Source: Ianthella basta
Lineage: Eukaryota; Porifera; Demospongiae; Verongiida; Ianthellidae
NCBI GenBank assembly: GCA_964019415.1
Contig: OZ025868.1
Span: 9,609,143 to 9,673,142, forward strand
DNA length: 64,000 bases
Direction of reading: 5' to 3'
A program made the position numbers and the translations under genes. The notes beneath the pieces were generated by a model. The model was not told where the DNA came from. It saw nothing but the letters and a program-made list of their open reading frames with translations, and searched no databases. This document shows positions 4,564 through 28,673 of this stretch, one piece after another. Numbering within the stretch: position 1 is the first letter of the stretch; every line of letters starts with the position of its first letter.

Positions 4564-7186
4564 TCACAGGACACGAAGTTCCTCTTGGAGAAATGCAAAT
4601 GAAGGCCGTTGCGATTGGCTCTGTTGCAAGCAGTTTTGAATGCATGACTGGATCATGACGGGGCAGTTGCGGGGAATATCGGGTTGTGTTCCATTTGTCA
4701 CCATGGCCCTGACTTCCCTCAGGCCAACGTGACTGTAGGGCTCATAGCCCTGGGTGAAGAGCTCAACGAGCACCATGCCAAATGACCATACATCTGACTT
4801 TGAGGTGTACTGTGGATCTGCTGTGTACACTTCCGGTGCAGTCCACCTGGGATTGGACACCATGGCATACTCCTTAGCAGTAAAGGGCTCACGAGCCTTG
4901 GCAATCGTGAGTGCGCAGTGAAATCCGCTCAGCTTGCAGTCAGCACCCTCGCTCACTAGCACGTTGGCAGCTTTGAGCTCGCGATGGACAATGTCCTTCT
5001 CCTCGAGGAAGGCCATGGCTGAGGCTATCTGAGATGCAAAGTGTGAGAGGTGTTCGCTTGTATATAGGTCCGAGTGTTGCTGCACAATCTGCTGCAGGTT
5101 GAGCTTGAAGCACGATTCAACGATGATGTGAGGCTGTTCACTCCACACACAAACCCCAAACATCTTGAGAATATTGGAGTGGCCTCCTGATCGGGAGACT
5201 AAGTTGAGAACGCTAACCTCGTTGTATAATGCCGCCATGTTTGCCCTTCGTTGGTCCTGATCCGGGGCAATGGTCTTCACAGCCACTGGAATAGTGCCTT
5301 CACCCGTCGATGACGCAAACTGGCCACTCCACACCACAAAATGCTTCTCCTGGTGCAACTCCTTGTCCATGGAGAAAGAATCACGCACCAGCTCCATCCT
5401 TTGGCTAATGAAGGGAAGAGTCAGAAGCGTGACCAATCCAAGTCTCTTCTGTGTGTACTCTCTAACCAGTTCGCTGATGGTAACAAAGTTAGGTGATCCT
5501 TCCTGGTTCAGTGAATACATGTCATTGGCATTGTGGAAGATCTGGTAGGAGCACGCTTTCCCCGCGTGCTTCACTGCAAGCACGTATCCATTCCTGCCTT
5601 TTCGTACAAAGAAGCTGCCTTCCGGGTTGATTGGCTTCTGCATGTGTATTTCCGCTTCTTCTTTGCACATCTGTGTGTACCACCTGAGGGGGAGGGGAGG
5701 GGTAGTCATAAATAGTCATAACTGCTGTGTAAACCAAAGCAAATTCATGAGCTGTTATGCTCATAATATGGAAATATGGACCACTGGTCACGTTCATACT
5801 ACTACAATCAGGTGTGGGTAGACTGGTGAATGCTGTATTTACTCAGTTTCACATTCCATCACACAACAGGAGTGGCCGCTAGACTACAGTGGATTATGCA
5901 TCACCGATTCATGTACTGTCCATTCAAAAGAAATGCATTGTACTGACACAGAATGCAAAGGTAGTTCTTCCTGTTGAAGCCGTCTTTATCTCTAGCCCCA
6001 CCAGCCGTATGCCTCATGTCTATATTAGTGGGGGCCATGGCACCTTACTACTATGCATGCATACGTACTGACATTAGCTCAAAACAGTATAATAAGCACA
6101 TATGCTACATGTGCAGGAGCTCACAGCCCACTCAGCCCATGCATGCAGTCACAAATGTACAGCGGCCCCAGCTGTCCTGGCCACCTCATGATCTGACACA
6201 ACATTAAAACTGTCCATTGTCCCACTCCTGTACATGTCGGTCCATTTGTATTATGGTACACTTGTAGCTATGTCCAGGGCTCCACACAGCTACACACATG
6301 CACTGACAGCAGCCCGCTTGTGAGTCATGTGGTGAGGTGGTGAGCAATAGAAGCAAGCGAACTGTCCCACGTGTCTACCAAACTGCCCCGCTCACACCAA
6401 TTGAAGACGCAAGTCTACCACACACCCAATAACAGAAGACTAGCATTTGTAACTTACTGTTACGCCCGCTACAGGGAAGCCTTCAAAATGCACTGCCGCC
6501 CCTGCAGGCACACACCACACAGGATTCAAACATTAGCTACTTAGAGTGGTACGACTGCCACACCGGGAGGACTCTGGTGTGGGAAGCCACACACATCCAA
6601 AGGCACTGTATGGCCGTACACAACATGTCTCAGTAGTAAACTAACTTTAAATCTAATACTTCAGCACAATGGTTATTGCATTACACTCTACACATGACAC
6701 AAACTCAGTGGAGGAAATGACTTCTGCAGCAGTGAGGCTTACATTTCTTCTGTGATTGGTCTCAGCTCCTCGAGGTACCTGGAGGCAGGCCGGACATGGA
6801 CACACTCCTGCAAGTGTTCACTCTGCACCAGGCAGCTGTCATCGGTCTTGTCCCAGGCAGTTGGAAAGATCACCACCCTCTCTCCTCTTTGAAGGTCCTC
6901 ATAATCCTTTCTCAGCACGGCTTTGGTGAAGGGAGCTGGAGAGCCAGCTTCAGAGGAGGGAGGCTGCAAGGAGAGGAGGAGGAGGAGGAGGGGAGGGGGA
7001 GGAGGAGGGGGAAGAGGAGGAGGAGGAGGAGGAGGAGGGGGAAGAGGAAGAGGAGGGGGATGGTGAACAAATTGAGTACAAAGTGTACAGTCTATTTCAG
7101 TATGCAATGTTGATGGTGAATGCGGTTTGAGTAAGTGTACGGTAACATCAGTATGCACTCAAGCATGCATGCACAGCTGGACAAGG

Positions 7187-7262
<76 letters not shown>

Positions 7263-8094
7263 GTGTGTGCGCGCGTGCGCGTGTGTGTGTGCATGTGTGT
7301 GTGTGTGTCAGGGGACCAAGGTGGCCCAACATAGGCTCAGTTCACTACCACATGCCATCCAACATGGTTAATGAAGGACAACATTCACTACACTCACTGA
7401 TGTGCTTGATACTCTGAGTTCATGCCTGGAGGGATCAGTAGGGCTTTCATTAGACGAGATAGACACTGGTGAACCGGAGGAAAGGCGTGGTTTAGCTGGG
7501 AGGGCAGGTGGTGACGGCAATCTGGTTCTGTCCTGCAGACAAAGGAGGCGTGCTTATTTGATTACATTGCTGCTTCAAAAGCCTAGCCTATCTACACACT
7601 GTAGCAGACACTGCCACTTTGAACTATTAGCCCATCACTTAACTCCACAGCTCACTGTTTTGTAAGCACAGGAGGAGTCATGGCTTAAGGCGATTAGCAC
7701 CTTTGCCACTGGACTCCTTTACATGAAATGGGATTAACAAACATAAGAAAATTATGTACACTGAATAGTATACTGAATGCTCCTAATTAAATAGACAGCT
7801 TTGGATGGCTCAACACTCAAAATTAATTATGAACCACAGATTGGGAACCCACTTGAAGGGCAGGTATTCAGCTAGTGCATACAAAATGCGAGCAAAACAA
7901 ATTTCTTTAACTTCCTCTACAAACAGCACAACCACATTTGGAGTCATGTACATGCAAAAACACACCAAACCACTGACACTTAGCAGCAGTGTGTGTATAA
8001 GCAGAATCCACGAGATACATACACCACAAACACCACATACATCACACACAGACATACACAGAGACACATGCGAGTGCACACACACACACGCACG

Positions 8095-8125
<31 letters not shown>

Positions 8126-9910
8126 CTAACTAGAGACAATGCTACTCAACTCACAAGTGGTTCCCTAGCAGGAGGTGGGGATCTCGACACTTCCCTTTCA
8201 GCAGGAGAAGACGGTTCGCCTTTAACTGAGGTACTGTGGGCCAAGAAAGGGGAATTTGGAGCTCCATTTGATAAGCCACTTCTTCTGTGTCCCTCTGGAG
8301 AATACTGCGGGCCAAGCAGAGGCAGACACAAGTATGTCAATAGTTGTACTTGCTATGCGTACAGGACTGGGATCAAACCACACTCCACACAACCATAGGC
8401 TAGTGTCCCCTGGTAGCTAATGTGAACTAAGGGCATGGCATGCTGCGTTGGTGTAGTCACTCACAGCATTCCTTCCTGCTCCAGTCAAGCTATTGGCAGG
8501 ACTAGGATTAACACTTCTGGAGGGTCCACAGGGCTGCCTGCCAGGAGTAGAGGGAGGTCTTTCTTCCTGGATTGATAGGACAACAAAAGCACTCACATTA
8601 CCTCAAACACACAAGCTACAGGAGTGGAGGGTACAATATCATGTAACATCACATGGTGACCACTGCATGCAGCAGACCCTCGCTACTCTGGTACATGTTC
8701 AACTCACAAAGTCAGACTCTGTGCTCCATGCTGACATTCTGATGCCACCTCCAGGGCCCATTGTCTGGTAACCCTCGTCCTTGAGTGATAGCTTAGAGAC
8801 GCAGTGAAGTTGTTCTCTGCTGGAAGGATGAAACTGCTTCCCTGGGAGAGGTGGTGCATAAACTGACTCTGGTGGCTCCTTCCCAGTTTGCAATAAGCTC
8901 CTGATGGACATTTGCATGCGTGTTAGAGTTCGTTTTGATGCGTGCAATTCCTCCTCCTTGCTCCTGAGCTGAGCCTGCAGCTGGAGAATATCCCTTGCAT
9001 TTCTACTCACATTTGATTTGGTGCCAGTGAGGTGGGTAATGATGAGCTCTATACTGGTGCTGAGTTGGGAGAAGGCCGGCCTACCCTTGGGATCATCTGT
9101 AAAGCACTGAGCAAGAATTGGCTGAAAGTTCTTTTCTGCATTCGTCAGCTGCTTGAGGTACTTGTCTCGTCGTTGTAGCTCTCTTACAACCTCGCCCTTG
9201 TCGCTCTTACCGGACCCTTTCTTGACCTTTGAATCTGGCTCAGGAAATTCATGCAGTAAAGTGTGGAGGACAAGACTACCAAATGAGAATGCGTCTGAAG
9301 CGAAGGACGCGTACGGCTCGGGCCAGCGATTAGAGCCAGTGACTGGAAGGGTTGCTTGACCTTGGCCTCCTCTGCCTTCATTCTCGAGCTTGGTCGCTGT
9401 GCCGAACTCTCCCAGTTTGGCCGTTAGAGCCGGAGTGAGGTAGACGGAAGAGGCACTGAGGTCCCTCATCAGGATGGCAGGCTTCCGCGAATGGAGGTAG
9501 CGGATAGCGAGGGTGACGTCCCGCATTATGAATGCCTTGGTGACCAGGGGGAAGGCCTCTCTTCGCACATCATTGAGGTAGCGACCAAGGTTGTGCTGGA
9601 GCAGCTCCGTCACAATGACGGGATAGCCGCCCTCGATGGGGAAGTAGACGCCATAAAACTGCATCACGTTCGGGTGCTTGAGTTCGCTCCAGAGAGTGCA
9701 TTCACAGAGGAAGCGATCGGAGAGGTACTCTGTGGCGTCTTCTACCCGCAGCCGCTTAATGGCGCAGGGTGCACCCATCCATTTGCCTTCCACCAGAGCG
9801 GTCCCTACTAACCCAACATCAACTGGTGTTTCCGTAATCTCGACACCGTCTGTCGCCAAGTGCTCCAGGGTGCGTCGCAAGAACTTCGAGCCTCCTCCTG
9901 CCGTGGCCAT
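4564..9910 (-). CDS. Gene A: kinase-like, SH3-like, SH2, tyrosine-kinase-like protein; both kinase domains predicted inactive
   Basis: Six exons fit with consensus sites: 9910-8708, 8566-8465, 8304-8155, 7532-7398, 6963-6743 and 5683-4564. The first four junctions are phase 0. The last is phase 2 (AT|G). The model gives 976 aa. Residues 25-310 are a TKL-like kinase fold with CAIK (Lys52) and alpha-C Glu70, but MRD(L)SASS replaces HRDxxxxN and EFG replaces DFG (168-170). Residues 311-530 are a Ser/Pro-rich linker with APPLPGK, PPALPAK and a YQTM motif. Residues 531-604 resemble an SH3 (ALRKDY-like start, weak). The SH2 starts at Trp605 and keeps the FxVR arginine (Arg631). The tyrosine-kinase-like domain (about 715-970) keeps VAVK Lys740 and WTAPE but has HRE (837-839) and GFH in place of DFG (857-859). 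An adaptor or scaffold role is inferred. The MATA start matches gene B; an in-frame TTG further upstream is unlikely. Confidence 0.85.
6968..7060. repeat. 93-nt pure purine/pyrimidine tract before the SH3-like exon of gene A
   Basis: The plus strand is uninterrupted A/G (mostly GGA and GAA) from 6968 to 7060. On the coding (minus) strand this is a very long pyrimidine tract ending at CTTGCAG, the acceptor of the exon that starts at 6963. It therefore doubles as an oversized polypyrimidine tract. Mirror-like purine tracts of this length can form triplex DNA; that is a general property, not something visible here. Confidence 0.85.
7187..7308. repeat. (GT)n microsatellite, about 120 bp, in a gene A intron
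   Basis: Nearly pure GT dinucleotide run with a few GC interruptions near its 3' end. It lies between two exons of gene A. The cysteine-valine reading frames across it are artefacts of the repeat. Confidence 0.95.
8073..8126. repeat. (CA)n/(CGCA)n microsatellite in a gene A intron
   Basis: CA repeat with a CGCACGCA interior. It lies just downstream (in gene orientation) of the donor at 8155. Non-coding. Confidence 0.9.
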
Positions 9911-10272
9911 GCTAGCTCCACCACCCCGAGAGCCCCGTATCAGCAACTGATTCGATCACTGTAGAAAGAACGATTTGTACACTGTCTCAGGTGGTCTGAC
10001 ATCACTGATATGTACAGCCACGCCCACAAAGAGAAGCCATTTTGGCCGTGCATCGTACCATAAAGCCCGTCATCACAAGGTTACCCTAGGCCTGCCTATA
10101 TGCGTACATAGCTTAGCATGCAGAGTGTTGTAGGTATTAGAATGCTATTATTAGACATGCTCACCACTCGTGCACCCATGGCCACCCATATAGATATCAG
10201 ATCCACTCACTTGAGTAATCGTTCATGCACATATATATATGTATGCATAATGCGTACAGCACAATCACATCT

Positions 10273-10350
<78 letters not shown>

Positions 10351-11022
10351 ACGCACGCACACACACACACACACATATAGTTACAGAGCTATACGTACAA
10401 TGATACCCACATGAACACGCGTAGACACATATGCACTTATAATTCCATTACACATACGTATATGTGCACACACAACTAAAATGAAGCTGTAAATGTGTCT
10501 TGTGTACACATCTCTAGAGTGCTTGTGTTTTCAGTATTCTCTATTGTATAACAAAACAGTCATTTGCCACAAATGCGTGCGCATGCAGCGTTACAATACA
10601 TTTAAATGTACACTCTATAGACAGTCACTGGTGCACTGGTGCATAGCATACCAGGCAATAGAATAATCCTATAAGCTGCCTACATGCACTCTGGGAGCAC
10701 TATTGTTGGAACACTGTGTGTACATTGGGACGAAATCCACACAGAACAGGTGTGTACAGAAATATGTCCTGAATATTACAATAGCTAAAGACGGGAAATA
10801 ATCATAAGATGCACAATCATGCACTGGGTTACATGCAGGCCAGCTATGTACATTATGTAAGGAGCACACGTTTAGATACAACTATAAAATGCAAATATAA
10901 AATTGTGTATTATGTACAAAATGTAGAAAAATAAACTTTCCTGTTTCTCAGATAGGTGTCACCACTACACAGCTCCTTTTGACAATTTCACACTCACATA
11001 TTTCAGACAGTCAGCTGCTCAG
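9911..11022. other. Intergenic region between gene C (3' end) and gene A (5' end), with (CA)n at 10277-10375
   Basis: Upstream sequence of gene A and downstream sequence of gene C, both on the minus strand. The main feature is a (CA)n array of about 100 bp at 10277-10375 with CGCA interruptions. No exon with splice sites was found. The first 200 bp upstream of 9910 should hold the gene A promoter and 5' UTR, but no core element stands out. Confidence 0.6.
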
Positions 11023-14000
11023 CTACATTGTCTCATAAGCAGGATTGCGTCTCATTGGTGGGCAGCTCTCGATGGATGCATAGGCAGGATTGCGGCTCAT
11101 TGGTGGACTGCTCTCGATGGATGCATAGGCAGGATTGCGGCTCATCGGTGGGCTGCTCTCGATGGATCCATAAGCAGGGTTGGGGTGCATTGGTGGGCTG
11201 CTCTCGATGGATCCATAAGCAGGGTTGGGGTGCATTGGTGGGATGCTCTCGATGGATCCATAAGCAGGGTTGGGGTGTATTGAGGGGCTGCTTTCTCGAG
11301 ACCGATCATTAATGGGAGCTGTTTGACGATGTGGGAAAACTGGTGAATCATTGAGGCTCTGCCGTAAATGGCGGGGAAGGTCAGGTGAGAAGCTCAACTT
11401 CTTGGATGGATGGTGTGGCAGGACTGGCGAGAAGTTAAGGTGGACATAGTCATATGACCCAACCCTCGTTGCCTGTGGTAGTAAAGGGACACCAAGTGTT
11501 ACCACATATCAGGGGACACATCTGCACAGAGCCCTATGCTACCCACCAGGCCTCCGTACTCTGTACAATTACCACATCTCCACTAGTAGGGCTCCACTCT
11601 GCAGCATGCATGGTTGTGAGACGACACAATAATTACATGCAGAAAGGCAGAGTAACTTGGCCAACTTGAGTTCTTCCTCACTTCACAACAAACTCTAAAC
11701 TTATCCACTACTTCCCCACTGACTTCTGAGCACACACATCCACACATCTGTGCTAGTGCTGTGATACAATTAGTGTCCATACAGTGCACTTCATGTCAGT
11801 GTAGATAGAGACATGAATCGTAATACCAATACTAAAACTGCTACTGAATGCTGATCCACAGCTTCACCACACTACCTGAGGACCAAGAAGCATGTGTTAC
11901 AGCATGAGTGAACAAGTGAACAGTATGTTGATCACTTCAATAGTATACCATATAAGAAAATATATCGTAAAACCATGATTATGGACAATGAGTATTATAC
12001 ATTTTGTTTTATTCTATATACATCCTCATGCAATGTACATACCCCAAATCCATTTCCACTTTTAATTAAGCAAATTGATATGAAGAATGTGTTTGAGTGC
12101 TAATTGATTCAAGACTGATATGGACTTTCAAAGGCCAAACAAAGCATGCTGCATGTGTGAGCTCAACACTGGTGCAGCACCAGAAAGAAGTTAACTTGGA
12201 CAGTCAGTTACAAGAATGGATTCTCGAATGACGTCATACCCCGTCCACCTTAATTGATCAGGTACTGCAGTGACCACAGAAACCATTTAGGTAGTGTGAT
12301 TCCATTGCATCAGAAGTGTAATTAACAATCTTGAATAGGATTGGAATGACAAGAGTCACAAGACTGCTAAATGGTGTGCATTCACTTCATGTTCAGTTCA
12401 GTACTGCAGTCAAACACTATTAGAACATTCCCGAACAATACCCGTATGACATCACAGACACATACAGACATCATCACACACATTAGTGCTGACACAGGAG
12501 GAGACGCAAACAGCTTCAAGCTCTCCAGCACTACACACATATGTAGTCTCGTCCCCAGACCCTTCCCGCAGGGGAGGGTCGCTCGCTCGCGCGCGCTTCG
12601 GAAGGGTCTGGGAACGAGACTAACACATATGGTAGTGGGCCATGTGAATGGCCTTCTATACTGCTGAATATAGTGGTGAGAGGTTCCTGTCACTAACTAA
12701 AAGGTACTGAAAGGCAGTGGTGCACATCCTCTGGTGAATTAGGGGCCCTTTTGCATTCTGTGTTTCAAGGTGAATGTGACTTATGTATATGTACACCATA
12801 TAAGTAGGTGAGCTCCACTTTCACCAATGCTCTCCCCATATGGTACACCAATAGCGTTGTAGGAAGTGTTACGGAGATGCTTATGGTAAAGTTACTTTAG
12901 TGTTTGTTTACAGCAGCCTCTGTGGTGTCCTGGTATGACCAACTTGTGCAAACTTCCACATTAGAAGGTACAGTCCCTGGTCAGGATGGTTCTCATTGCG
13001 ACACATGGAATGGAGAGATAGCATGACCATACTTACTCACCAACACATTGCTAAAGGAGTTCTGTCTAGGTGCTGACACACATAGGATGCTTTGCATTCC
13101 TCTCTGTTTGGTTGTAGTCATAACCATGGCGACCATAGGCATAACATGCTATTACAGGAGATTGCAACATCTTTGCAAGAAGTGAAGCAATTCCACGTCA
13201 CACGTGCCCTTACAAAGGGGGCATGGTTACATGTCTACAATACTTACGTAATTGGAGGGATCTCATTGGCGAGCATGACTCACTTCTCCTTACTGTATGT
13301 GGTTTGTAACATGCCTTTCAGTTTATGTTACAAACATTTACAGATGAGTTATACATGTACACATACATTTGTATGCATGCCATGTGTATGGTACAGTGTG
13401 TAACGCAAACACAGCTCATTTCTAAAAACATATACACACATACGTAAAGACATTTTCTACACTCAGTGATAACTACAAGCTGCAATGCCCCCACTTGTCA
13501 GCCCACAGAGGACCACTTTGTGTAGCTATATGCTACGTATGTACAAGGAAGCCATTCCTACAGTGAAGGGGCAGTTTGTAATTAGAGGGCAAAGCACCCC
13601 AAAATGAGCTCAGCCAGCATACTCCAGCTCAATACTATACCACACCTGTCTAGCTTGTAGACCTGTTGTCTAGGTGGAAAAGAAGGGAATTAGCCTATCC
13701 CACTGTCACTGTGACTGCATGCCTCATTTGAACAACAAGTAACCCGCCCTCTCTCCTCTACAATATGTGTACTAAATAGGCAATGAAGGGACACAGTTTG
13801 AGGACATTCGACTCTACACCCAGTGGCAGCTACCAGCTGTTACTGTAGCTACAAGCAGTAACCCAAGGTAGGGAAGGAAAGAGGGCTATGCTTGTTTGGA
13901 GGAGAACGATGTACAGTAATTTTGTAGTTATTGTGCTATTATCACTAAGTTGTGTGACTCTGTGATACCATTCACCCTTCACTAGACCAGTGAGCCCAAC

Positions 14001-14961: not shown

Positions 14962-17628
14962 ACACACATGTCGTTATGTCCACACCTCAATATAAGGGTC
15001 TCTGCACTCGAGCTGTCTGAAGCAGCATACATATTAAAACACTTGTGTGTGGGTGGGGGGAGGGTGTTTCTTGGGATGTACTGAGGCTAATGAACAGCTC
15101 ACCAGTCTACACATGAACCTATCAACCTAGCTGTGGTTGAGTTGATAGCTAAGGCCACCAATGCCAGCCGGTGCATGTGTTTGCCACTTCAGTGGGATAT
15201 ATAGAGAGTGAGGACTCTGGGTAAGGCATTCCACAAGGCTTTTACCAGTTTGTTGCTGTGCTTCCATACCCCATACAAACAAACTCCCTAAACAGAAGTG
15301 CACATAGCTTTGAGGTCCAGTCCCATTTCTCTGCAAAATAATTAAATTTATGCAATAAATAGCTTGCAGAGAACAGGGTCTCAATAAGAGACTACAGGCC
15401 CATGTTGGTTTACTTGGCTACAGGCAGCTATGGCTACACTGGCCATTAACAAGACCAAGACCCTTTGTTCTTGTAATTGCAAAAGCCAAGCACACCTACA
15501 TAATGTAGGGTAGCAAGGTCAGGTGCAGAAAGCACTCCTACGAACGTAAATGTGAAGTAAATATGAATTACAGGTGGAAATAGGCTAAAAACATGAAAAT
15601 GCTACATATTGAAATCAAAACCCACACCAAACAGAACTTTGTCATAGCTACTGTACCTAGATTAGGACAACACTGACAGGTGACAAACACAAGCTAATGA
15701 AAGTAAAATGATCAATACATCTTTGTGAACTCCCTTCCTTAACGTCACTGCGAGGTCACACTGCCAGTTCCAGTGTAAGCAATAGTGTGTAGGAAAGACC
15801 CATGCACCTCTGGCAGAAACAATGGAGAATGCACCCACCACACGGACCAATTATAAGATTGAAGCTCATCAACAACTCATGCTTTCCAAGTGAGAGCTGC
15901 TACTAGTAAAAGTGTGTCAGTATTTAAAGGTGCATTTCAATGAGCTGTATATGCCTTAAAGTTAGGTATTAATTTCAGCTAATTTAGGAAGTGGGGGAAA
16001 ATGCACTAAAATTTGTACCCACTAAAACACTTTTGTACAGCCAAAAATGACCCCCAAAATGCTTGAAAATTGTTATAATTAGTACCAACCAAGTCCTGGA
16101 CTGTTCAAAACACTAAGTTAGTAGCCGCCAGATGTGTACCCTTAAGGTACACCTCACAAGGGTAAACACAGGGCAGTACACAACTCAGACAGAAACAGCG
16201 CACAGCAGATAGCCTAATGGCCAGAGACATTGTGGCTCAAGGGACACGTCTGTACACACATACAGAAAGCACGTACACACATTGGGAAAGTAGCACAGCA
16301 AACCCTGTGTGTACAGTGTGTGTACATTGTGCACCAGTTCACCAGTGGAGAATGTACCGACATTGAATACATGTGTAGGGACATACCCTTACCTGGTGTT
16401 CTCCTTTCTCATCAATGTCCCGTTCTGAGGATGTAACAACAGGCGGTCTCCATCCATGTCTGTAGTGGCCAGGCAGTGACTTGAGCCGTGCGAATGGAGG
16501 GGAGTAGCTGTATTGCTCCCCTTCTGCTGTTCTTGAAAGAATAGGGGTATTTGGCACTGGTACCGGTTCATCATCAGCTAGGCCCATGAGTGAGCGAAGT
16601 GTCCTTTCAAACGATTCCAGCTCATCTGCAGCTGCATCAGCACTCGCTGAGATGTGCTGGAGATGATGGCTGACGTCAACCATAGTTCCACCATTGAGCA
16701 CACTCTCGCCGCACTTTCCCTCACTCAGCTGAGGTTGCAACTGGCTAAGCCTGAGGCACAAGTCTGTCATGCTTGGCCGATGTGCGGCCACAGGGTCCAA
16801 GCACTGGGCGATGATAGGCAGAAAGAGCTTCTCCTTGCCCTTCAAAATGCTGGTGTAATCAGATCGCCTCTCCTCTTCGCTGAAGAATATAGCATCATCA
16901 TTGTTGACAACTATCATGGCCTCCTTTGGTATGGGGACCTTGTGCACGAGAACGTGCAAGCAGAGCACGCCGAAGGAGAACGTGTCAGAGCCGGTCTTGC
17001 CAGACTGCTTCACAGCTTCACAGCCCTCTGCAATCACCTCAGGGGACAGGTGGAATATAACCTCCAGGTCGGAGTTTAGCATACCCTGGGCAATCTCTCT
17101 TCGCATCTTCTGGTTGCTGGCGAAGAAGGTGTCCCCTAGATCTAGCTTGGCGCGGACACTCGGTGTGAGGAAGACGTGTCCGGCTTGCAGGTCGCCGTGG
17201 AGGAGAGGACGCGGTGTTAAGGAGTGTAGATAGCGTACGCCGCAGGCGACATCACGGAGGATGGCGAGCTTGAACGGTAAAGACACCATCGAGTGTGGGC
17301 TGCTCTGGAGCAGGTTAGCCAGGTTGACCGTGAGTAGTTCCGTCACTGCCCAGAGGGTGCCGTCGGGCGAGGCGAATGCGCCCATAAGCATGACGATATT
17401 CGGGTGATTGAGGGAGTTCCAAAGGATACAGCTCTTCACCTGCTCGTCTCTCTTCTCTTCTAGTAGTTTTCGGGCAGCCAAAGGCGTCCCCATCCACACG
17501 GCCTCTTTCAGTTCGCCAAAAACGCCTACGTTTAGGACCTCGTTCATCACCTCGACATCCTCCAGCAGGAGACGGGGTAAGGCGCGTGGAGCAGCAGCAG
17601 GTGGCTTGCCAGAGGAGACCTCCATCAT
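11023..17628 (-). CDS. Gene C: kinase-like protein with a tail of six NPAY motifs, predicted pseudokinase
   Basis: Exon 1 (17628-16393) encodes 412 residues with a kinase-like fold related to the first domain of genes A and B (shared LxHPN, VTELL, VRYLHS and TFSFG-type landmarks). It has AARK Lys54, but the alpha-C Glu is Ser, HRD is HGD (144-146), the catalytic-loop Asn is His, and DFG reads DLGD (163-166). The donor CAG|GTAAGG is phase 0 and joins in frame to an exon at 11472-11023 (acceptor CCACAG). That exon encodes 149 residues rich in Ser/Pro, ending in six NPAY motifs with Tyr at residues 483, 498, 513, 528, 543 and 558. Three read NPAYGSI, two NPAYASI and the last NPAYETM. A YDYVHL motif lies upstream. 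NPxY can bind PTB domains, YxxI/YxxM SH2 domains. Joining the exons across a 4.9 kb intron is inferred from phase and strand; small exons in between are possible. Confidence 0.7.
11033..11285. repeat. 45-bp coding tandem repeat (NPAY unit) in the last exon of gene C
   Basis: A 45-bp unit encoding NPAY[GA]SIES[IS]PPMHP and variants is repeated about five and a half times, with near-identical DNA between neighbouring copies. The copy-to-copy similarity shows recent expansion. The number of tyrosine motifs may differ between alleles. Confidence 0.9.
12544..12622. mobile_element. 79-bp palindromic MITE with 23-bp terminal inverted repeats and 9-bp target duplication
   Basis: Both ends read TAGTCTCGTYCCCAGACCC going inward (12544-12566 and the complement at 12600-12622), with one mismatch in 23 bp. 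The flanking bases ACACATATG occur directly on each side, a 9-bp target site duplication. The short interior is GC-rich (CGCTCGCTCGCGCGCGC). No coding capacity. A 9-bp duplication fits Mutator-like or related transposases, but the family is not proven. Confidence 0.85.
14460..14840. mobile_element. Non-autonomous element with imperfect terminal inverted repeats related to the 79-bp MITE
   Basis: The left end contains GCCAGACCTCCTGCGGAAGG and the right end, read on the other strand, GCAGACCCCCCTGCGGAAGG preceded by TAGTCTCATG. The CAGACCC/GGAAGGGTCTGG core and the TAGTCTC terminus are shared with the element at 12544-12622. About 380 bp, no open reading frame of interest. The outer boundary on the left is uncertain. 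Confidence 0.55.
14885..14970. repeat. (CA)n microsatellite, about 85 bp
   Basis: Nearly pure CA run with one TA interruption, inside the large intron of gene C. Confidence 0.95.
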
Positions 17629-19750
17629 GATTTCCTAACACTAGAAGCCTAACCGATGAATACTAATAAGCGCCTGTCCAATATAAGGGCCTTGTCGCGC
17701 ACAATGTAATGTAGGGCTACTTCATGATGTAGCTATGCGCTGTATGGCCTAGCTGTGGATGAGTTGATAGCTGAATAATCGTAACAACACCATCTCTGGA
17801 GTGTATTGACTGAACTGTACAGAATATGATGTAGGTACATAACCCGCGTGAGCTGCATACTGCAGGTGCATGGGTAACCTCAATCAAGAGCTGCTGTGGA
17901 TGCATATATTGTGAATATTTCTTCAAGATTGTACTGGTTGCCATGGTGTGGTCCTTGGTGTCCATTCCATGGTCTGGCATGTACACTCTAATACTCAACT
18001 TGCACTATTATTCTGGTAATACTCATCGCAGCTTGCACCGTACATGTACATGTGTGGTAGTGGTGGTTGTACTTGCATGATCAGTGGTCATTAATTGTCT
18101 CTATGTTTTCCTGCCTCACTGGTGTTGATCTATGCAGGTTGCCTGCTTTTCTTGGTGAGTATACATGTGTGCTTGTATAGTGGTGATGTGCATGATGGCA
18201 TCAGTTAGAAAGCATTGGTGGTACTATGTGATGGCACCACTGGTAGCAGAATCACCTGGTGTACTTACGGTGGTGATGGTAGTGTGCTTGAGTGGATATG
18301 CAATATGCACATTTGGCTGTGAATACATGTGCACACCGCCATGCAGAGCTGCGGGTGTCTTTCAGTGCAACACACTACAGAAACTGTATACATATGGCTG
18401 CCACACAATGGGATGGGATCTACAGTCAGTGATCTCAAGCCAAGTGCAGCCCAGAACCACCTGCTATCCAGTACTGTAGACAGCATCCCATTTTGCCATT
18501 GCAGTGGAAGTGCTATAGCAGAGCATTTTACGGCTTTGATCCAAGTATTAATGTCAGCAGGCAGCATGCACTGCACCTCTCAGTGGCTAGCCAGCAACAC
18601 CCAGACAAATCAGCGACCTGTCAATGGTTAAGGTGTACATATACATGGGCCTTCTTGTGGCAGTGCATATATACATGCATGAGGGGCCGGTGGGCCAGGG
18701 GCCTTGGGCCGGGAGAGGCAGAGAAAATTATATAAACTTTACAAGCAGCACAGGCCTGTGTGTGTATGTAAGCTTGTGAAAATGCAAATTGAATAGTAAC
18801 TAATTGAAACAATGACAAATGTACACCACATTAATAATGTATGTATGGCTAGTAAACTCATCAAATTAATTGTTGGATTGTTGAGACTAACACTTGATAT
18901 GCATTCCAGTTGTAGCCATCTATTTCACACGCACTTCTCAATTTAAGAAGCAGGAACATCAATGGGATGTTGCTTAATTATTAATGGGTAGCTGCGTAAT
19001 TTCAATATTGTATATCTTTGAATTCCTGCAGTACATCAATAACACATTATGTTAACAGTAGCACTCAGTCTGATACCAGTACTATCAGTCTTTTTATGCA
19101 CTCAAACATATTGAAGGAGCCCATGTAGACTAAGAGTGGATGCAGCATTGCTTACCGTGGTGTCTGTGATCATTAGTGACTCACTCTTCATACAAATGTT
19201 TGTATGTATTGTGTACTAGGTGAAGCTGCCCCTGCATGTCCTGTACAATCATCCAGTTAACATGATACATTGGTGTGTGTACATTCTTTAACAATGGTAT
19301 ATGAATCTCATGCATACAGAGGAGTGCTCAAAGTTCATGGGAGAATGAAGTAGAAAAACAAACATTCATTGAAACATTTGTTCGTTGTTTTGCACATTCA
19401 CACTTATACTTGTACCTGTATTCCTATACTGCTCACTGCAGGTACCACAGCTGTACAGAAGGTCACTTCCTAGCAATACAGTGTTGACTACAATACCACA
19501 GGTAGCTGCATACAAACCAGCACTGTTTCTGCAACACACAGTCATTGCAAGGAGTGACATGTGGCAAGCACATCACCATACTGTGCACATGATTATAGAG
19601 TAGCTACTGAGTGAAACACCACAATAATAGGCTCCCTGAGCTGAATCTAGAACCATAGCCAATGCGGACAGTACTTACTAATCCCAGAAAAATGATCTAA
19701 CTAGATCAAATCAGGACATATGCATCTAGATCTGGACTCCATCCAACAGC
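17629..19750. other. Intergenic region between the 5' ends of gene C and FBXO3 (with its relic)
   Basis: Gene C (minus) and FBXO3 (plus) diverge from this region. It should hold the gene C promoter near 17.65-17.9 kb. I see no exon with credible splice sites or homology, and the short open frames show no recognisable motif. Confidence 0.5.
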
Positions 19751-19753
19751 ATG

Positions 19754-20060
19754 TCACGTGATTCTAAAAATAACATGGCTGCCTCAGCAGTCCATCTTCT
19801 TCCAGCCACTGCTCTCTCACGAATCAACCAGTTTCTCGATGCTCCCGATGTAGTCTCCTTTGCTCTTACCCATGTGCCCATATTAATGATGCATTGCATG
19901 CATTATGATTTAGTCCATATTTCCTCAGATTCTTCATCCCACTCCAAACTGTACTGATCAATACTGGTGCCCAGCTCCCCTGACCTTCAGCAATTGCAAC
20001 TTGCATTGTATGGTGTTGTCTGTATCACCATCTGGTGCAAAACGCAATCATTTTTAGATG
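19754..20060 (+). pseudogene. FBXO3 relic 1: 5' end fused to 3' flank by an internal deletion
   Basis: Starting at the ATG at 19775 the sequence encodes a near copy of the first 30 residues of the downstream FBXO3 (TALSRINQFLDAPDVV block). The frame then leaves the F-box. From about 19928 it matches the 3' flank of FBXO3 near 21985-22065 (TGATCAATACTGG and CTGACCTTCAGCAA blocks). The relic thus keeps both ends of a former whole-gene copy and has lost about 2 kb between them. The TCACGTGA motif upstream of the start is also retained (19754-19761). Confidence 0.8.
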
Positions 20061-20422
20061 CTCTGTGCATGCACACATGCATGGCCTTGATCGAAATATC
20101 AACAGGCAGTGTTAGTACATGTCTCTTTACGACACGCTGTTTTGACAGCTTTAATTCGTATTGCCATCCAAATGAATTTGAAGTTGTATGGCTGATCAGT
20201 AATTTGTGCCTGCCCTGAGCACAAGTTATGTGTTGAGTCATAGTCAATGAGGACCTTTGCTACTATGTAGTTATATGTAAACTGCAAATAGCTATATAAT
20301 ACAAACTAACTATATTAAATTAGGAAGTGTAACTGGAGCTCTCCACAACTGTCTAAACATAGCTAGCTAGTTGTGATAATGTATCACTGGTGACAGTGAC
20401 ATGACACATCACGTAGAGCATG

Positions 20423-20430
20423 TCACGTGA
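20423..20430. promoter_or_regulatory. Palindromic E-box TCACGTGA next to the FBXO3 start
   Basis: TCACGTGA lies 10 bp upstream of the FBXO3 ATG and recurs at the same place in relic 1 (19754-19761). The same octamer occurs about 365 bp upstream of the gene B start (29038-29045) and in its duplicate at about 58427. This is the core recognised by bHLH-zip factors such as USF and MITF/TFE. Function here is inferred from sequence only. Confidence 0.4.
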
Positions 20431-20439
20431 TTCCTTGAC

Positions 20440-21786
20440 ATGGCTACCTCAGCAGTCCACGCACTTCCGGCTACTGCTCTCTCACGAATCAACCAGTTCC
20501 TGGACGCTCCCGATGTAGTCACCTTCGCTCATACCTGCTCTTTCCTGTACTCCTCCGTGACGCAAGATGACCCGCTGTGGAAGAGACACTGTCGACGCGA
20601 TTTCGTGTGCGATGAGTTCCTCAGTGAAGGCGTGAAGAGTTGGTACGAGCAGTGGCTGTACCTGTGTAGGGAGTTCGGTCAGTGCAGATCCTGCTATGTT
20701 CAGGTGAAGTTGGCGTGGAAGCAGATCGAGTCCCTCCTCCAGGAGCGGTGTCCCCATGCCTATAGCGAGTTGATGGCTTCTGGTGCCGTATCGGAGGCGG
20801 AGTTGAAGGAGTTGGAAGGAAGGTTGGAGATTCAGCTACCTGAAGACTACAGGTGCTCATTGAGGCTTCACGGCAAGCTGTCTGTGTCACTCGGTTCCGT
20901 CAGCTACCTAGTGACTGAGTATTGCGAACATTCAAAGGAGACTCGAGTCAACCACCAGACCTTCAAACTGCATGGAGCGAGTGACGTAGGATTCGAAACC
21001 ATTCGTGTGGATTGCTGGCCTGAATTGCGCATTGGCTTTTTGGCTATTGGCGAGAACATTTCCAGCATTCCCACAAAGTCATCATTTGAGTTGGATGATG
21101 AATCAGCAGAGTCAGCTAGGGAGTTTCTTGTTATGGTTAGCAGTGACGAAGGTTCCACGCATGCAGATAGCCCACTTGGTCATATTTTCACTGCGTTTTC
21201 CAGTCCTATACAGTATGGATTCTGCCAACCTGGTGGATGCTGTGTGGATATGGACCGGCTGTACGAGTGGCTGCGAATAGCTGAGTTTGGCACTTTTGCA
21301 GACTGGCTGTCTTCTGAAGCTGACAGGCTCCAGCACTACTACATCACTGCTAAAGAGAAGCAGCTGACGCGCTTTGTCCTCAAACCAGGGAGTGAGGCTG
21401 TCACTGGCTACTTCACTGTACATGTGGCTACTGCTATTCTTTGTGAGACCGGTGGTTGGTCTGACAACTGCAGTGTTGCTTTGTGCCTCATTATGGAATT
21501 GTCTAAAGATGCCCCGGTTGAGGACAGTTGTCAGCTAGTTCAAGACTGCCTGATAGTCAATGGCGAGAGAGTAGATCCTCAATACCGCTCCTTTGTGCAG
21601 ACACCTCCATCAATTACTCTTCATCCTGGTCATGTGGTGGAGTACCTGAGCCAGCCACTGTCAGCTGAAGTGGATGCAGTCCTGGAAGGCTACGTCATCA
21701 TGCGAACTATCCAAGGCAGTAGAGAGGTTCGGGTCAAACTACCACAAGTCACCTTTGAAACAGTTTCACCCCAGCGTTTTGGCTAA
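20440..21786 (+). CDS. FBXO3: F-box only protein 3 (F-box, SUKH, ApaG), single exon
   Basis: FBXO3 is a substrate receptor of SCF (SKP1-CUL1-F-box) ubiquitin ligases. The 448-residue product shows the family's three parts in order. An F-box lies at about residues 9-52 (LPATALSRINQFLDAPDVV through DPLWKRHCRRDF). A SUKH/SMI1-KNR4-like domain covers about 115-295, with LPEDYRCSLRLHGKL at its start, the stretch best conserved in FBXO3. An ApaG/DUF525 immunoglobulin-like domain covers about 310-435, with VHVATAILCETGGW and MELSKDAPVEDSCQL. The long acidic C-terminal tail of vertebrate FBXO3 is absent. The whole coding region is one exon. The start ATG matches the start in relic 1. Nearby truncated copies show the locus has been duplicated. 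The identification is firm. Confidence 0.93.
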   Translation: MATSAVHALPATALSRINQFLDAPDVVTFAHTCSFLYSSVTQDDPLWKRHCRRDFVCDEFLSEGVKSWYEQWLYLCREFGQCRSCYVQVKLAWKQIESLLQERCPHAYSELMASGAVSEAELKELEGRLEIQLPEDYRCSLRLHGKLSVSLGSVSYLVTEYCEHSKETRVNHQTFKLHGASDVGFETIRVDCWPELRIGFLAIGENISSIPTKSSFELDDESAESAREFLVMVSSDEGSTHADSPLGHIFTAFSSPIQYGFCQPGGCCVDMDRLYEWLRIAEFGTFADWLSSEADRLQHYYITAKEKQLTRFVLKPGSEAVTGYFTVHVATAILCETGGWSDNCSVALCLIMELSKDAPVEDSCQLVQDCLIVNGERVDPQYRSFVQTPPSITLHPGHVVEYLSQPLSAEVDAVLEGYVIMRTIQGSREVRVKLPQVTFETVSPQRFG

Positions 21787-23069
21787 TTTTGGAAAGATTT
21801 CTCCATGTATTGTTAACCCTGAAAGTCGTATAGTTAACTTCTGTCTTTACCACTAGCTAGCTAACTCTTTGTATATACCTTTATGAATTATAAAGTTTGT
21901 TTGTCATGCAACTTTGGTACAGGTTCTGTGTATGCCCATGCTATGATAATATTCTGTAAGTATGACGGTTTGTGCAATTCTTCTGATTCTGCATCCCGCT
22001 CCAACTAGTGCTGATCAATACTGGTACCCAGCTCCCTGACCTTCAGCAAATGCAACTGCAAGTACTGCATGGGTACCGTGTTCTCTGACTTGATCATGCA
22101 CTTATATAGTGACAACACCCTATATACTTGCACCAGTCCTGTGCATGAGGTCTGAGTATGTTCAAGGCAGACAAGAAGAAAAACACTTGCAATGGACAAG
22201 CAATCAAGTTTCTAGTTCATTGCATTTGATCAATATCATGAATTCATTGCACATACGTATCTACATGACAGAAGTCACAATGGCATAGCATTGTACTAAT
22301 GTAGTCACAATACAACAGTAACATATACCTGATGAGCTCCAAATAGGTATAAGGCCACATACATATGCATGCACATGTGGTCCCTGCATGTACGAATAGC
22401 GCAAGTGTTTAGACTCATTATTATAATCTTAAGTCTAAAGCCATGTACATAGGTGAAATAACTATAGCAACACATTTGTCAAGTTTGCTGAATGTGATGA
22501 ATGGAAGGGCTTTTCCGAGAAACCCATGCATCCTTGTTTGTATCAATTGCTCTGTACATGTGTGCATGGCCTTGTGGCTTGATCCAGCTAACAGCTGCAT
22601 GCAGGCATGCAGCATCTACACGTGACTCTGTGGCCCACATAATTAGGACAGTTTCACTTCATATCATCATCCTCATGACGCTGAATTTTGATGGTCCATC
22701 ACTAGCTAGGTAGCTAAATTGTGTCCACTCTGCACTCAGGACATGTACACCTTTAGAACCACTGTCAATGAGGTCATCACAATCAGTTGCTATTCATAAT
22801 AGCTACGTAGCTAGTTTGATTGGTGAAAAGAAGTAAGGTAAATAGCTATAGCTACTTAGCTTGCTAGCTAGCTAATAATTGAAATGTGACATCATTTGTA
22901 AGTGTAGCTAGTTGAACTTTAGTTACTCGCATCATATTAATCATTCATAATTATTCTATTATTGATGATCTATAGCAACATAGATTGACACATGTCTGGT
23001 TTAGTCTGGAGGGCTATGATAGCAAGGCATGAACATGTATACTAATGCTTGGATCTGATATCATTGATT

Positions 23070-23170
23070 GATTGTCAAGTGACTCTACTAGCAAGATGAT
23101 TACCCCAGCAGTCCATTGCATTCCTGCCACAGCTCTCTCATGAAACAATCAGTTCCTCATGATGTCATAT
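23070..23170 (+). pseudogene. FBXO3 relic 2: degenerate 5' end
   Basis: The stretch CAGCAGTCCATTGCATTCC then CCACAGCTCTCTCATGAAAC then CAATCAGTTCCT follows the order of the FBXO3 start region, with substitutions, small indels and no usable frame. The ATG is replaced by ATGATTACC. It is a third, older copy of the same 5' end. Confidence 0.7.
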
Positions 23171-24481
23171 TTTGCTATGGTGGCCGTGTCCGTATATTAT
23201 GAATGATCCAGCTTTGTGGCTATTGCAGAGTGCAACATTCCTGCAAAGTTAATTAGAATTTGGTTCTGACTCTTTGTATATGTCTAAATTTGTTTTGCTA
23301 CTTTGCTACAGGCTTGTTGCGTATAAAATTATTGTGTGCATGTGGTTTAGTGTAAATTTTGCTATAAGAAAATCAAATACTTAAATGTCCCTGCATACAT
23401 GAGAGCTGAGCAATACCCATAGCCACATGTAGTCTATGCATGTGCCACAATGCATGCTGCATAATTATATAGACAGCCACATTCACTGTCAGGATGTGCC
23501 CTATAATAAGTTTAGAGTAATACACATTACATTGACCAAGTGCAGGTTATAGCCATAATTATTTTAGTATGTAATAAGCACAATGCCATAAACGTAAGTA
23601 GCTAAATGTATATATTTTTATACCGCTGCCTCCATATATAGCCTCCCTGAATTGTGTTATTCATTTTATTTATTTATTTAGATTAGTGCAATATATTGTT
23701 ACTTGTACTGTATACAGTATCATGTATTATTTCTAGACATGTGTGGCTGTGTGTGCACATGCACATGCATGCCTTGCAGCCCAGATGTAGGTACCACTGC
23801 ATGCTATTAGTACAGCAAACTATATAGTGCTCACATGCATGCAATGGGTGTCTGTAGGTATGGTCATTTACTTATATTAACTAATCACACTGACTTCTTG
23901 AGCTGTACAGTCATCATATGGCCATGCACAGGTATGCTGTCCTGAATAGACAGGTTGTTACATACAATGTCACATACACCTGAATACATTGGCACTCAGC
24001 AGACTAAATAATGCAGACCCACTAGCCACCATTCGTTAAGCACAGTGTAGAGCTATGGACAGAAGATGGTCACTGTAGATTAAGCTAAGTCATGTGCTGT
24101 TATATATGGAAGACTACAAACTTGGGACATGTATCCAGAAAGCAGTGGTACAGCCCATGTATTGTGTGCGCCTATTGCACAAGACATCTTATATAGGTTT
24201 GGCGATATTTGCACGACTATATCAGCTAGCTGTGGTGTGTAGTGCAACATCATTGGTAACTAGTCCACAAATTGTTTTAAACTTACTGTACATCATAATG
24301 GACTGTAATTATGAGTAGTTAATTGAGTGTTGCAAAATACCCCACATTGCCACCATCTGTACATGTAGTCGGGCATCTTGTGACCACTCCATGCACACAT
24401 GTATTAGACTCCACCTGATCATGACCCTTCCGTGAGTGGAGGGGTCACGTGGCACCTGACTATATACTGTTCATGTAAGTA

Positions 24482-24484
<3 letters not shown>

Positions 24485-24519
<35 letters not shown>
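24485..24519. repeat. (GAT)n microsatellite
   Basis: About twelve GAT units, intergenic, between FBXO3 and gene B. Confidence 0.95.
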
Positions 24520-24520
<1 letters not shown>

Positions 24521-24961
24521 ATAATCGGAAGCATGCCCAGTGTATTAATATAAAGTGATGTACAGCATGTAGCGTACAGTACATAGTAAACAATGCAAAA
24601 TTTACAGCCGAATGACTCGTGATTATACATGTACATTAAACATTACATGCATACCAATTTTAGCGTTATTAGTTGTATCTATACTGTACATACAATTTTG
24701 TACCAATCAAAGTTTCAAGTGGAGTTGAAACATATAAAGCTCAGCAGAGAGTGTTCAAAGGTAGTTAACACTGTATATTGTGAAGCAGTATTGTAAGCAC
24801 TGCCATTATTGAATAATTATATGACATCTTGTCAGTAAAAAGTGAGATATAAAAAGTCATCCTGAATAATAAGATTATTTCAAAATCTTAAATACAGTGA
24901 ATAGCAGCGTTAACATATAAATTATGCAAGTCCAGCTTGCAGCAGTGTCTTTACATGATCA

Positions 24962-27900
24962 TTAGGCAAATGCCATTCCAACATCCTTAAATGAAGGGCG
25001 CTGTGAAGGGTTGCTTTGTACACATCTCTTGATAAGGGACTGGATGTTATGGGGACAACTGTAAGGAATGTCAGGAGGAGTGCCATTTGTTATTACGACC
25101 TTGACGTTTTGATCCTTGATCTTGTGGTATGGCTCACAGCCCTGGGTGAATAGCTCAACGAGCACCATACCAAACGACCACACGTCTGACTTTGAGGTGT
25201 ACTGTGGATCTGCTGTGTACACTTCTGGTGCAGTCCACCTGGGATTGGACACCATGGCATACTCCTTAGCAGTAAAGGCCTCATTTGCCTTGGTAGTTGT
25301 CACTGCACAGTGAAATCCGCTGAGCTTACAATCAGCATCATTGCTGAGTAGCACGTTGGCAGCTTTGAGCTCACGATGGACAATGTCCTTGTCCTCAAGG
25401 AAGGCCATGGCTGAGGCTATCTGAGATGCAAAGTGCATTAGGTGATGGTTGCTGTAGAGTTCTGCATGTTGGGACACAACCTGTTGCATGTTGTCCTGGT
25501 AGCAAAGCTCAACGATAAGATGAGGTGGGTGCTTCTGCACATAGATCCCAAACATTTTCAGGATATTTTTGTGCCCTCCAGATCTGGACACAAAATTTAG
25601 AATGCTAGCCTCATTGTATAATGCTGCCATGTTTGCCCTCCGTTGGTCCTCATCTGGGGCAACGGTCTTCACAGCCACTGGAGTTGCGTTTGCACCCGTC
25701 GATGTTGCATACTTGCCGATCCACACCACAAATCGCTTTCCCTGGTGCAACTCCTTCTCCATGGAGAATGACTTGCGTGACAGCTCCATCCTCAGGCTGA
25801 TGTAGGGGATAGTCAGGAGTACTGCTAGCCCCATTCTCTGCTTTGTGTACTCTCTAACCAGTTCACTGATGGTGACAAATCTTGGCTCTCCATCTTCGTT
25901 CAGTGAATACATCTGGTCAGCATCGTACAAGATCTGAAACAAGTGTGCCCTCCCAGAGTACTTCACTGAGAGCACATATCCATCGCTCCCTCCCCTTCGC
26001 ACAAGGTAGCTTCCATCTGGAATGTGTTCCTTCTGCATGTGTTCCTCTGCCTCATCCCTGCACATCTGTGAGAACCACCTGTGCATTGGAGAGTAGATGA
26101 ACACAATCATATAATATGGTATATTTATGTGAGTGCATGTGCTCTTTGAATGATCACTGCATTTGGGTTGGAATTGCATCAACTATTAATAAATTCTACA
26201 GTGGTTGATTGTTAAACTGATACTTCAATATCGGTATACAAAATATAGCTGCACAATAAAATGAACAATTTATAGATACATTTGTGAATGCAGCATTACC
26301 ACATTGAAGGGGTCACTGCACTTCTGCAACCTGAATGATAGCTTTAAAATTTCTTCTTCAATGAGCAAAGAATATATGCATGCAATCTTAGAAGACAGTG
26401 CACTTCTGTATCCACGCCTTAGTTTTGTGGGAACAGCTAGTTAGTTTCACCTGTTTTGATCACCTCTGGATGGCTCAACTCCCCAAATAACAGGTGACTA
26501 ATAATTGCCCATTATACCGAATTTGGTTGTGTCAATATATGCAAATCAGCTACTAAGTTGGTGTCATTTACAATTATGGCCACTTACACTTCATCTGTAA
26601 TTGGCTTCAGTGCTTCTAGGTACTTGGAAGCAGGCTGGACATGCAAGCATACACTGGTACTTTCACGGTGAACAGTGCAGCTGTCGTTATCGCTGTCCCA
26701 GGCTCCAGGTGAGATGATGACCTTCTCTCCTTTCTGCAGACTTTTGTAGTCCTTCCTCACCAGAGCATAGGTGAAATGTTCCATTTGGGGTTTGCAGGCA
26801 CCTGAACGCGATACAGCAGTTGCATTAGAGCCACTGGGAGCAGACCCACAAATTCTATGGGAGCCGGCTGGAGCTGGGCCAATGGCTGCACGAGAGCCTG
26901 TTGCTATGGGAATGGAGACTCCTGATACTGCAGGACCACTGGAGGTGAAGGCGGTACACCTTGAGCTACTGGAAGAGGAGCTGGATGATGCCTGAGTGCT
27001 ACTGGGCGTGGTGCTATGGGGTGAGCCACTGGATCTGGATGTAGATTGAGAGCTAGTACTGGTAGGGGAGACCAACGTTCCAACCCAGTGAGTGGAGCCT
27101 TTTCCTGCTGTTGAGTGAGGACTGGGAGAGACTGATGTGGCAGGGTGGAAAGCCCTGTTGGTAGCTTCTGAACCGTCATGAGTGGAATCAGGACTCCTGA
27201 AAGTGCTGTGTGGGGAGTGGACGGACTTTGATTGGAACCGGCGAGGTATGGAGCTTTTGCTCGCTTTCACCTGACCGTTTGCAGGGGGACAGTTGACTGC
27301 AGTGTGGTTGTACTACAGGGTTAAACAAGAATAACATCAGAAAGTCAATCCATGGCATTGTACTTTACATAATTATATGACAAGACTATATGGTAATGCA
27401 AAAGCAATAGGAAGGATGAGTTATTTGAGGTTAGTGATAGAGGCTGTCAACTATGTATGCAATTAGGTTGCATTTGTACCCTTTAAAAGACATAATGCCT
27501 TGCTTTAATTAAGCTAATGCCCATTCACTAGATTATATAGAAGCCCTGTGCAGCACTTACTGGGTTGCCTGTGCCTTCTACCTGTGTGTGTACCCTTGTA
27601 GAGCCGGACAGAGGCTGTAGCTGGCTAGTGATGTCTGGCTGAGAAGGCCATCTCGACTTATTTGCTAGATGCAGATGAGCTAGTGTCAACTGTCCTCTGT
27701 CCTCCTTGCTTCTAGGCTGGGGCTGCGAAGGATTTGCCCCTCTTGCATTTCCCGTTGAGTCCACACTAGCGGCGCTGAGGTGGCAAAGGACCGTTTCTAA
27801 GCTGGTACAGAGATGAGTGAAGCTGGGCCTGGCTTTTGGATCATCCTCGTAGCACTGAGCAAGAATTGGTTGGAATATCTTCTCAAGGTTCGACAGCGGC

Positions 27901-28673
27901 ATGAGGTACTTTTCTCGCCGCTGCAGCTCCCCCAACACCTCGCCTTTCGCGTGTCCTCCTCTGCGAATCTTTGGATTCGGCTCAGGGAACGCATGCAGTA
28001 GAATGTGGAGGATGAGGTCTCCGAAGGAGAACGCGTCCGAAGCGAATGACGAATATGGCTCTGGCCAGGTGGACGATCCAGTGATTGGGAGCGTCTCCGT
28101 ACGTTGAAGTCTGTAGTCATCAGTGGCGTCATTGTCGTCTCTCCCTAGCTTAGTCGCAGTGCCGAACTCGCCCAGTTTGGCCTTCAGAGAGGGGGTGAGA
28201 TAAACGAAAGAGGCATTCAGGTCCCTGAAAATGGTAGCCGGTTTCCGCGAATGAAGGTAGCGAACGGCCAAAGCCACGTCTCGCAGAATACTTGCCTTCG
28301 TAGTCAAGGGCACTGCAGGTTTAGGGGTGGTCTTGAGGTACTGATCAAGGTTGTGCTGCAGCAGTTCCGTCACAATGACGGGATAACCGCCCTTGATGGG
28401 GAAGTGGAGGCCATAGAACTGCAGCACGTTCGGGTGCTTGAGCTCGCTCCAGAGAGTGCACTCGTAGAGGAAGCGATCGGAAAGGTATTCCGTGGCGTCT
28501 TGCGTTCGTAGCCTCTTAATGGCGCAGGGCGCACCCACCCACGTCCCTTCTACCACAGTGCCGAACAGCCCCACGCTAATGTGCCTCTCCGTGATCTCAA
28601 CACCTTCAATCGCCAAGTGCTGCAGGGCGTTGTTGATGAATTTGCAATTGTAACCGCTCCTCGCCGTGGCCAT
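24962..28673 (-). CDS. Gene B: paralogue of gene A (kinase-like, SH3-like, SH2, tyrosine-kinase-like); both kinase domains predicted inactive
   Basis: Three exons: 28673-27561 (donor GTAAGT, phase 0), 27312-26588 (acceptor CTGTAG, donor GT|GTAAGT, phase 2) and 26078-24962. The model gives 984 aa against 976 in gene A. The first kinase-like domain has CAIK Lys53, FRD (149-151) with Phe instead of the catalytic-loop Asn, and EFG for DFG (169-171). Residues 372-540 form a Ser/Thr-rich linker, including a polyserine run. The SH3-like segment follows (ALVRKDYKSLQKGEKV). The SH2 starts at Trp614 with YLVR Arg640 and ends in the [10 protein letters not shown] block shared with gene A. The last domain keeps Lys750, SDVWSFG and WTAPE, but has HRE (847-849) and GFH (867-869). 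The same two losses as in gene A point to an old, retained non-catalytic state. R1 lies upstream on the same strand. Confidence 0.87.

Follow-up and report, generated by a model that had tools for sequence, protein, structure and literature searches.

Genes and features of the window

Two similar genes, A and B, are encoded on the minus strand of the window, the 64,000-nucleotide stretch of Ianthella basta DNA analysed here, which is part of contig C1; genome searches covered the 209 Mb assembly with its 96 contigs. Gene A extends from 9910 to 4564 and encodes 976 aa, and gene B extends from 28673 to 24962 and encodes 984 aa, as given in the preliminary description. Consensus splice sites and matching intron phases had also been claimed there, and both were found. 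All seven introns of the two genes possess a GTRAG donor and an AG acceptor with open frames, and the phases are 0,0,0,0,2 in A (six exons) and 0,2 in B (three exons). The exons are listed with the evidence for each in brackets.

8708..9910, minus strand: gene A exon 1, TKL-type pseudokinase (aa ~15-292), coiled-coil remnant and linker (splicing, Pfam, tree, motifs, coil similarity)
8465..8566, minus strand: gene A exon 2, Pro/Ser-rich linker (splicing; no in-frame Met)
8155..8304, minus strand: gene A exon 3, linker (splicing; no in-frame Met)
7398..7532, minus strand: gene A exon 4, linker including a proline-rich stretch (splicing; no in-frame Met)
6743..6963, minus strand: gene A exon 5, SH3-like segment (aa ~542-604), probable SH3 remnant (position and phase-2 end as in Src-type SH3 exons)
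4564..5683, minus strand: gene A exon 6, SH2 (aa 606-680), tyrosine pseudokinase (aa 709-973) and stop (splicing, Pfam, motifs)
27561..28673, minus strand: gene B exon 1, TKL-type pseudokinase and linker (splicing, Pfam, tree, motifs)
26588..27312, minus strand: gene B exon 2, Ser/Pro-rich linker and SH3-like segment (aa ~551-613) (splicing)
24962..26078, minus strand: gene B exon 3, SH2 (aa 615-690), tyrosine pseudokinase (aa 718-979) and stop (splicing, Pfam, motifs)

Related exons were found around these genes, including those of a third gene, C.

16393..17628, minus strand: gene C exon 1, TKL-type pseudokinase between A and B, 38% identical to the N-terminal kinase domain (N-domain) of B (Pfam, tree)
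11023..11472, minus strand: possible last exon of gene C, five NPAY(G/A)SI repeats and NPAYETM (phase-0 compatible and in frame with exon 1)
57470..58078, minus strand: truncated copy of the N-terminal pseudokinase exon of B, 94% identical over aa 1-196
29793-30056, 40666-40929 and 59202-59465, same strand as B and upstream of it: three receptor-like exons, tandem copies

In a tree of 26 kinase-domain rows from the Ianthella basta genome, gene C is sister to the N-domains of A and B at 97/95, a relationship left unresolved in the constrained-clade tree. None of the six matches to the SH3-like/SH2 query lies near gene C, where an SH2/tyrosine-kinase exon was looked for, and no such match was seen beside the truncated copy at 57470..58078 in the genome searches. 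The frame and phase of the repeat exon make it a possible end of gene C; a genome search with its NPAY(G/A)SI repeats returned the exon itself and four weaker matches. Each receptor-like exon has a membrane-like segment, recognized by eye, followed by the tail SVYYETVQ...PAY(Q/L)SVEQ(V/A)K, and an fn3 exon is found near each of them. Two further partial copies of the B N-domain, 90% identical, lie on the same contig at 9687975-9688445 and 9474061-9474300, one of them with two stops.

Domain order and catalytic motifs

The preliminary description had placed one kinase domain ahead of SH2 and a second one behind it, and a Pfam scan of the spliced proteins bore out this order in both A and B. Two stretches per protein match PK_Tyr_Ser-Thr (4.5e-80 in A and 2.2e-88 in B), and an SH2 domain (1.6e-6 in A and 2.3e-8 in B) directly precedes the tyrosine-kinase-like domain; all of these matches are above the curated cut-offs. 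Neither a FERM domain nor an NHL propeller was found in A or B by Pfam.

Both domains had been described as pseudokinases, and motif reading agrees, as catalytic residues are missing from both kinase domains of both proteins. The N-domains keep the VAIK Lys and the RD, while DFG is changed to EFG and the Asn after HRD is lost, being Ser in A and Phe in B. The C-terminal domains (C-domains) keep the Lys, with HRD changed to HRE, DFG to GFH and the activation-loop Tyr to Phe, and the C-terminal regulatory Tyr tail is absent. Judged by these residues, both kinase domains look catalytically dead in A and B. The case is less firm for the N-domain, whose retained Lys and catalytic Asp may allow residual activity. 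The SH2 domains retain the FLVR Arg (FFVR in A, YLVR in B) and lack the His found in the 'KHYRI' strand of Src.

The label 'SH3-like' held for exon position and phase, which are those of Src-type SH3 exons, but its support from sequence is weak. A phase-2 end was found in all six SH3 exons read on contig C4, five of which are linked to Src-type genes solely by the proximity of a kinase exon. Immediately upstream of SH2, the splice acceptor lies one base ahead of the Trp codon in A and B, in all four Src genes read on C4 and in locus 1 of the C8 loci described below. As these Src genes and locus 1 share the intron before SH2, it was dropped as a marker of the parent gene. No SH3 was found among the PDB profile matches of the SH3-like exon; the sole match, sorbitol dehydrogenase at E 0.72, was taken as chance. 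Alignment of the segment to six SH3 domains by hhalign gave a probability of 3% and an E of 0.015. Shuffle tests gave p values of 0.126 (A) and 0.024 (B) against six SH3s, and of 0.072 (A) and 0.009 (B) against seven. The segment in A and B is probably an SH3 remnant.

Origin of the kinase domains and related loci on C8

The 26-row tree separates the two kinase domains at 100/100, with the N-domains of A and B among TKL-type kinases and the C-domains among tyrosine kinases. Within the tyrosine kinases the C-domains fall nearest to Src, grouping with the four Src genes of C4 at a moderate 90/71 and with a very long branch (83/77 after adding a C8-type tyrosine kinase). The PDB matches of the B N-domain count against the TKL assignment, as the best was a Src/Abl ancestor (1.6e-18), followed by B-raf (1.2e-15). 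A genome search with this domain returned at least 131 matches among the best candidates scored, most of them on contig C11 at 32-37% identity. For a member of the C11 family the best PDB match was CTR1 (1.1e-28), a TKL kinase. The C-terminal half of B aligns to residues 8-434 of the 439 of HCK SH3-SH2-tyrosine kinase (1.7e-38); the top-listed PDB chain for this half is an EGFR construct (8.3e-43), matched by the kinase part alone. No relatives of the SH2-tyrosine-kinase exon of B were found among prokaryote genome contigs.

C11 carries a very large tandem array of TKL-type kinase and coiled-coil exons (at least 136 scored matches genome-wide, most of them on C11). In the one C11 gene read downstream, the member matched to CTR1, an NHL-repeat exon follows at a distance of about 3 kb (6.1e-26), and the HHD/DFG motifs are intact. 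A and B have the N-domain in common with this family of TKL kinase, coiled coil and NHL, and A has the beginning of its coil as well. A and B differ from the member read by their broken motifs and by the Src module that they have instead of NHL. The coil remnant following the kinase in A also resembles the coil of the C8 loci (shuffle p 0.0035), whereas that position in B does not (p 0.62).

A set of TKL-coiled coil-SH3-SH2-tyrosine kinase fusions on C8, besides A and B, is newly described here. Five whole SH3 exons on the minus strand (four on C8 and one on C13), 80-85% identical to that of locus 1, and one fragment were found. Behind each of the five, SH2 and then tyrosine-kinase matches follow in order. 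A TKL kinase exon lies upstream in three of the five loci, with none near the other two among the best 136 of 811 candidates. The three are tandem loci at C8:1059-1082 kb, each consisting of a TKL kinase-coiled coil exon, an SH3 exon, and then SH2 and tyrosine-kinase exons; being tandem copies, they are counted as one event. In all three, the kinase-coiled-coil exon ends in AQE with a GT donor and is followed by a phase-0 intron and the SH3 exon. The gap between kinase and SH3 is 108 bp in locus 1, 114 bp in locus 2 and 141 bp in locus 3, a space in which a gene boundary would hardly fit.

The motifs of the C8 loci are unevenly preserved. Locus 1 has intact TKL motifs (HHDLSSNN, DFG), and its tyrosine kinase has NFE in place of DFG; locus 3 has NFG with HRD kept. 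A and B have GFH with HRE at these positions. The tyrosine kinase is thus degenerate in all four fused genes that are readable (A, B and C8 loci 1 and 3). HRD and DFG are both intact in the tyrosine kinase of locus 4, where no TKL exon was found, and in that of a partial set (L080 and L081). The C8 tyrosine kinases were considered as active enzymes and rejected as such, because the intact HRD..DFG belongs to locus 4 and the partial set, whereas fused loci 1 and 3 have it broken. The middle tyrosine-kinase match spans two TGA codons in locus 2 and one TAG in locus 4, and in L080 that TAG lies past the exon end. The C8 fusions differ from A and B also in their canonical SH3 sequence and in having no linker exons between the kinase and SH3.

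The domain order of A and B perhaps recurs on C8 by a separate fusion. Alternatively, a single ancient fusion could lie behind both A/B and the C8 loci, with gene conversion from the C11 array later replacing the TKL part on C8; we regard this as possible but doubtful. A single origin would account for the part order, which is equal in A/B and C8, for the intron phases, equal where read, and for the C8-like coil remnant retained in A. For the C-terminal kinases, a grouping of A/B with a C8-type tyrosine kinase is not rejected (p-AU 0.286, with the C8-type row partial and 49% filled). However, grouping the A and B N-domains with that of C8 locus 1 is rejected (p-AU 0.0018, with a long-branch warning), and identity between the C8 TKL domains and C11 kinase exons reaches 85%. 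These two results together suggest that the C8 kinase exon was recently gained or overwritten. Both C11 SH3 matches listed are more than 30 kb from any C11 kinase match scored, which also counts against a single fusion.

Probable single genes and a proposed adaptor role

A and B are very probably real single genes. The preliminary description had reached the same conclusion from the presence of two complete copies, which were held to argue against a chance fusion of gene models. The conclusion stands, but the argument from two copies is weak by itself: A and B arose by tandem duplication, and two separate neighbouring genes duplicated together would give the same picture. Each locus could accordingly consist of two adjacent genes, a TKL pseudokinase and a Src-like pseudokinase, duplicated as a pair. 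This arrangement we consider unlikely. Gene C, which suggests an SH2-less TKL pseudokinase gene in the same cluster, would fit it, and exon 2 of B holds one Met just before the SH3-like part, so that a separate short product could start there. In gene A, however, no Met codon was found in exons 2-5 or in their upstream in-frame stretches, and its SH3-like/SH2 part thus needs an upstream coding exon. The consensus splice sites are phase-consistent throughout, and the three C8 loci join the same two parts across their short introns. The two halves of A and B are equally diverged (dN 0.22 for the N-terminal and 0.21 for the C-terminal half), which is expected of a duplicated gene pair as well; the missing Met codons are stronger evidence, and the C8 loci the strongest.

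That A and B are decaying pseudogenes, in which motif loss means no function, is more improbable still: truncated and stop-containing copies of the B N-domain do occur on the same contig and key residues are gone from both kinase domains, but the reading frames of 976 and 984 codons are uninterrupted and their splice sites intact, both copies share the altered motifs EFG, HRE and GFH, and NG86 dN/dS between A and B is 0.22 in the N-kinase, 0.23 in the SH3-like segment, 0.24 in SH2 and 0.31 in the C-kinase (dS ~0.7-1.4 over the four domains) versus 0.71 in the linker. Both the N- and the C-terminal halves of A and B look to be under constraint.

On balance we favour a history in which a TKL kinase was fused to a Src module, catalytic activity was lost and the gene was duplicated in tandem, giving a phosphotyrosine-gated adaptor with dead kinase surfaces. 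In this history, exon 1 of a TKL-type kinase gene, with the kinase and the start of the coiled coil, would have been placed in front of a Src-type gene's SH3-SH2-tyrosine-kinase portion. Both kinase domains would then have lost their catalytic residues, and tandem duplication would have produced A and B, each with its two halves on one transcript. The SH2 domain is predicted to dock the protein on phosphorylated tails. PAYxS(I/V)E, common to the tails of the receptor-like exons and of gene C, is a possible candidate for the docking sites. The dead kinase domains may offer surfaces that bind active relatives or act on them allosterically, namely on Src-type kinases, TKL-type kinases and the C8 fusions. 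In this way A and B could keep a TKL partner anchored where a phosphotyrosine lies, or compete with active kinases for that site. As a working mechanism, an adaptor gated by phosphotyrosine whose two dead kinase folds tether or compete with active TKL-type and Src-type relatives is put forward tentatively.

The related fusions elsewhere in the genome suggest that kinases have been merged into new signalling adaptors. A broader reading, which we consider possible but open to doubt, is that within this animal lineage a TKL-type kinase captured a Src module at least twice and that the tyrosine kinase decays afterwards. The resulting SH3-SH2-pseudokinase part would act as a cassette for the phosphotyrosine targeting and control of a TKL-type kinase, as on C8. 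A and B would be an end state in which the TKL kinase is dead too, a decoy or scaffold regulating the active fusions, TKL relatives or Src.

Several known systems share parts of this architecture. JAK kinases have the order FERM-SH2-pseudokinase-kinase, and like A and B they combine two kinase domains, at least one of them a pseudokinase, with SH2 in one protein. A and B differ from them in that the first kinase is TKL-type and lies ahead of SH2, and in the absence of FERM by Pfam. PEAK and HER3 are noncatalytic pseudokinase adaptors, in which dead kinase folds are used as scaffolds in tyrosine-kinase signalling. We know of no adaptor of the PEAK/HER3 type in which a TKL-type pseudokinase is combined with an SH2 domain and a further pseudokinase. 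The Src-module kinases (Src, Abl, Tec, Csk and Src-Aque1, the last compared by description) have SH2 followed by a tyrosine-kinase domain, as do A and B. Unlike them, A and B have an additional N-terminal TKL-type pseudokinase, a dead tyrosine kinase with Phe for the loop Tyr, no Tyr tail and a degenerate SH3. Src-Aque1 belongs to a sponge-specific Src family with the order SH3-SH2-kinase (PMC8662651). That no described family has a kinase domain on either side of SH3-SH2 had been claimed before, and no kinase-SH3-SH2-kinase protein was found in the literature searched, which mostly left out subscription papers; the available text of PMC8662651 and PMC7586955 describes none.

Animal phosphotyrosine signalling uses a small set of domain orders. 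If the proposed fusion is real, a TKL-type kinase placed before a Src module links serine/threonine and tyrosine signalling in one polypeptide. The tyrosine-kinase decay in A, B and the two readable C8 fusions would then represent a natural series from kinase to pseudokinase adaptor.

Some further features were observed. The open frames 44957-46888 and 61026-61771 on the minus strand appear by eye to be remnants of reverse-transcriptase-type transposons, with 45635-46234 giving no Pfam match. A silicatein query against the genome returned 35 matches, with the cathepsin L GSCWAF present in all three readable loci; the best match, at C7:1270928, does not extend over the active-site motif. On the plus strand, 20431-21786 is one uninterrupted frame in which an F-box-like match is accompanied by one to SMI1/KNR4 (SUKH) that falls slightly short of its cut-off, the arrangement of FBXO3-like proteins.
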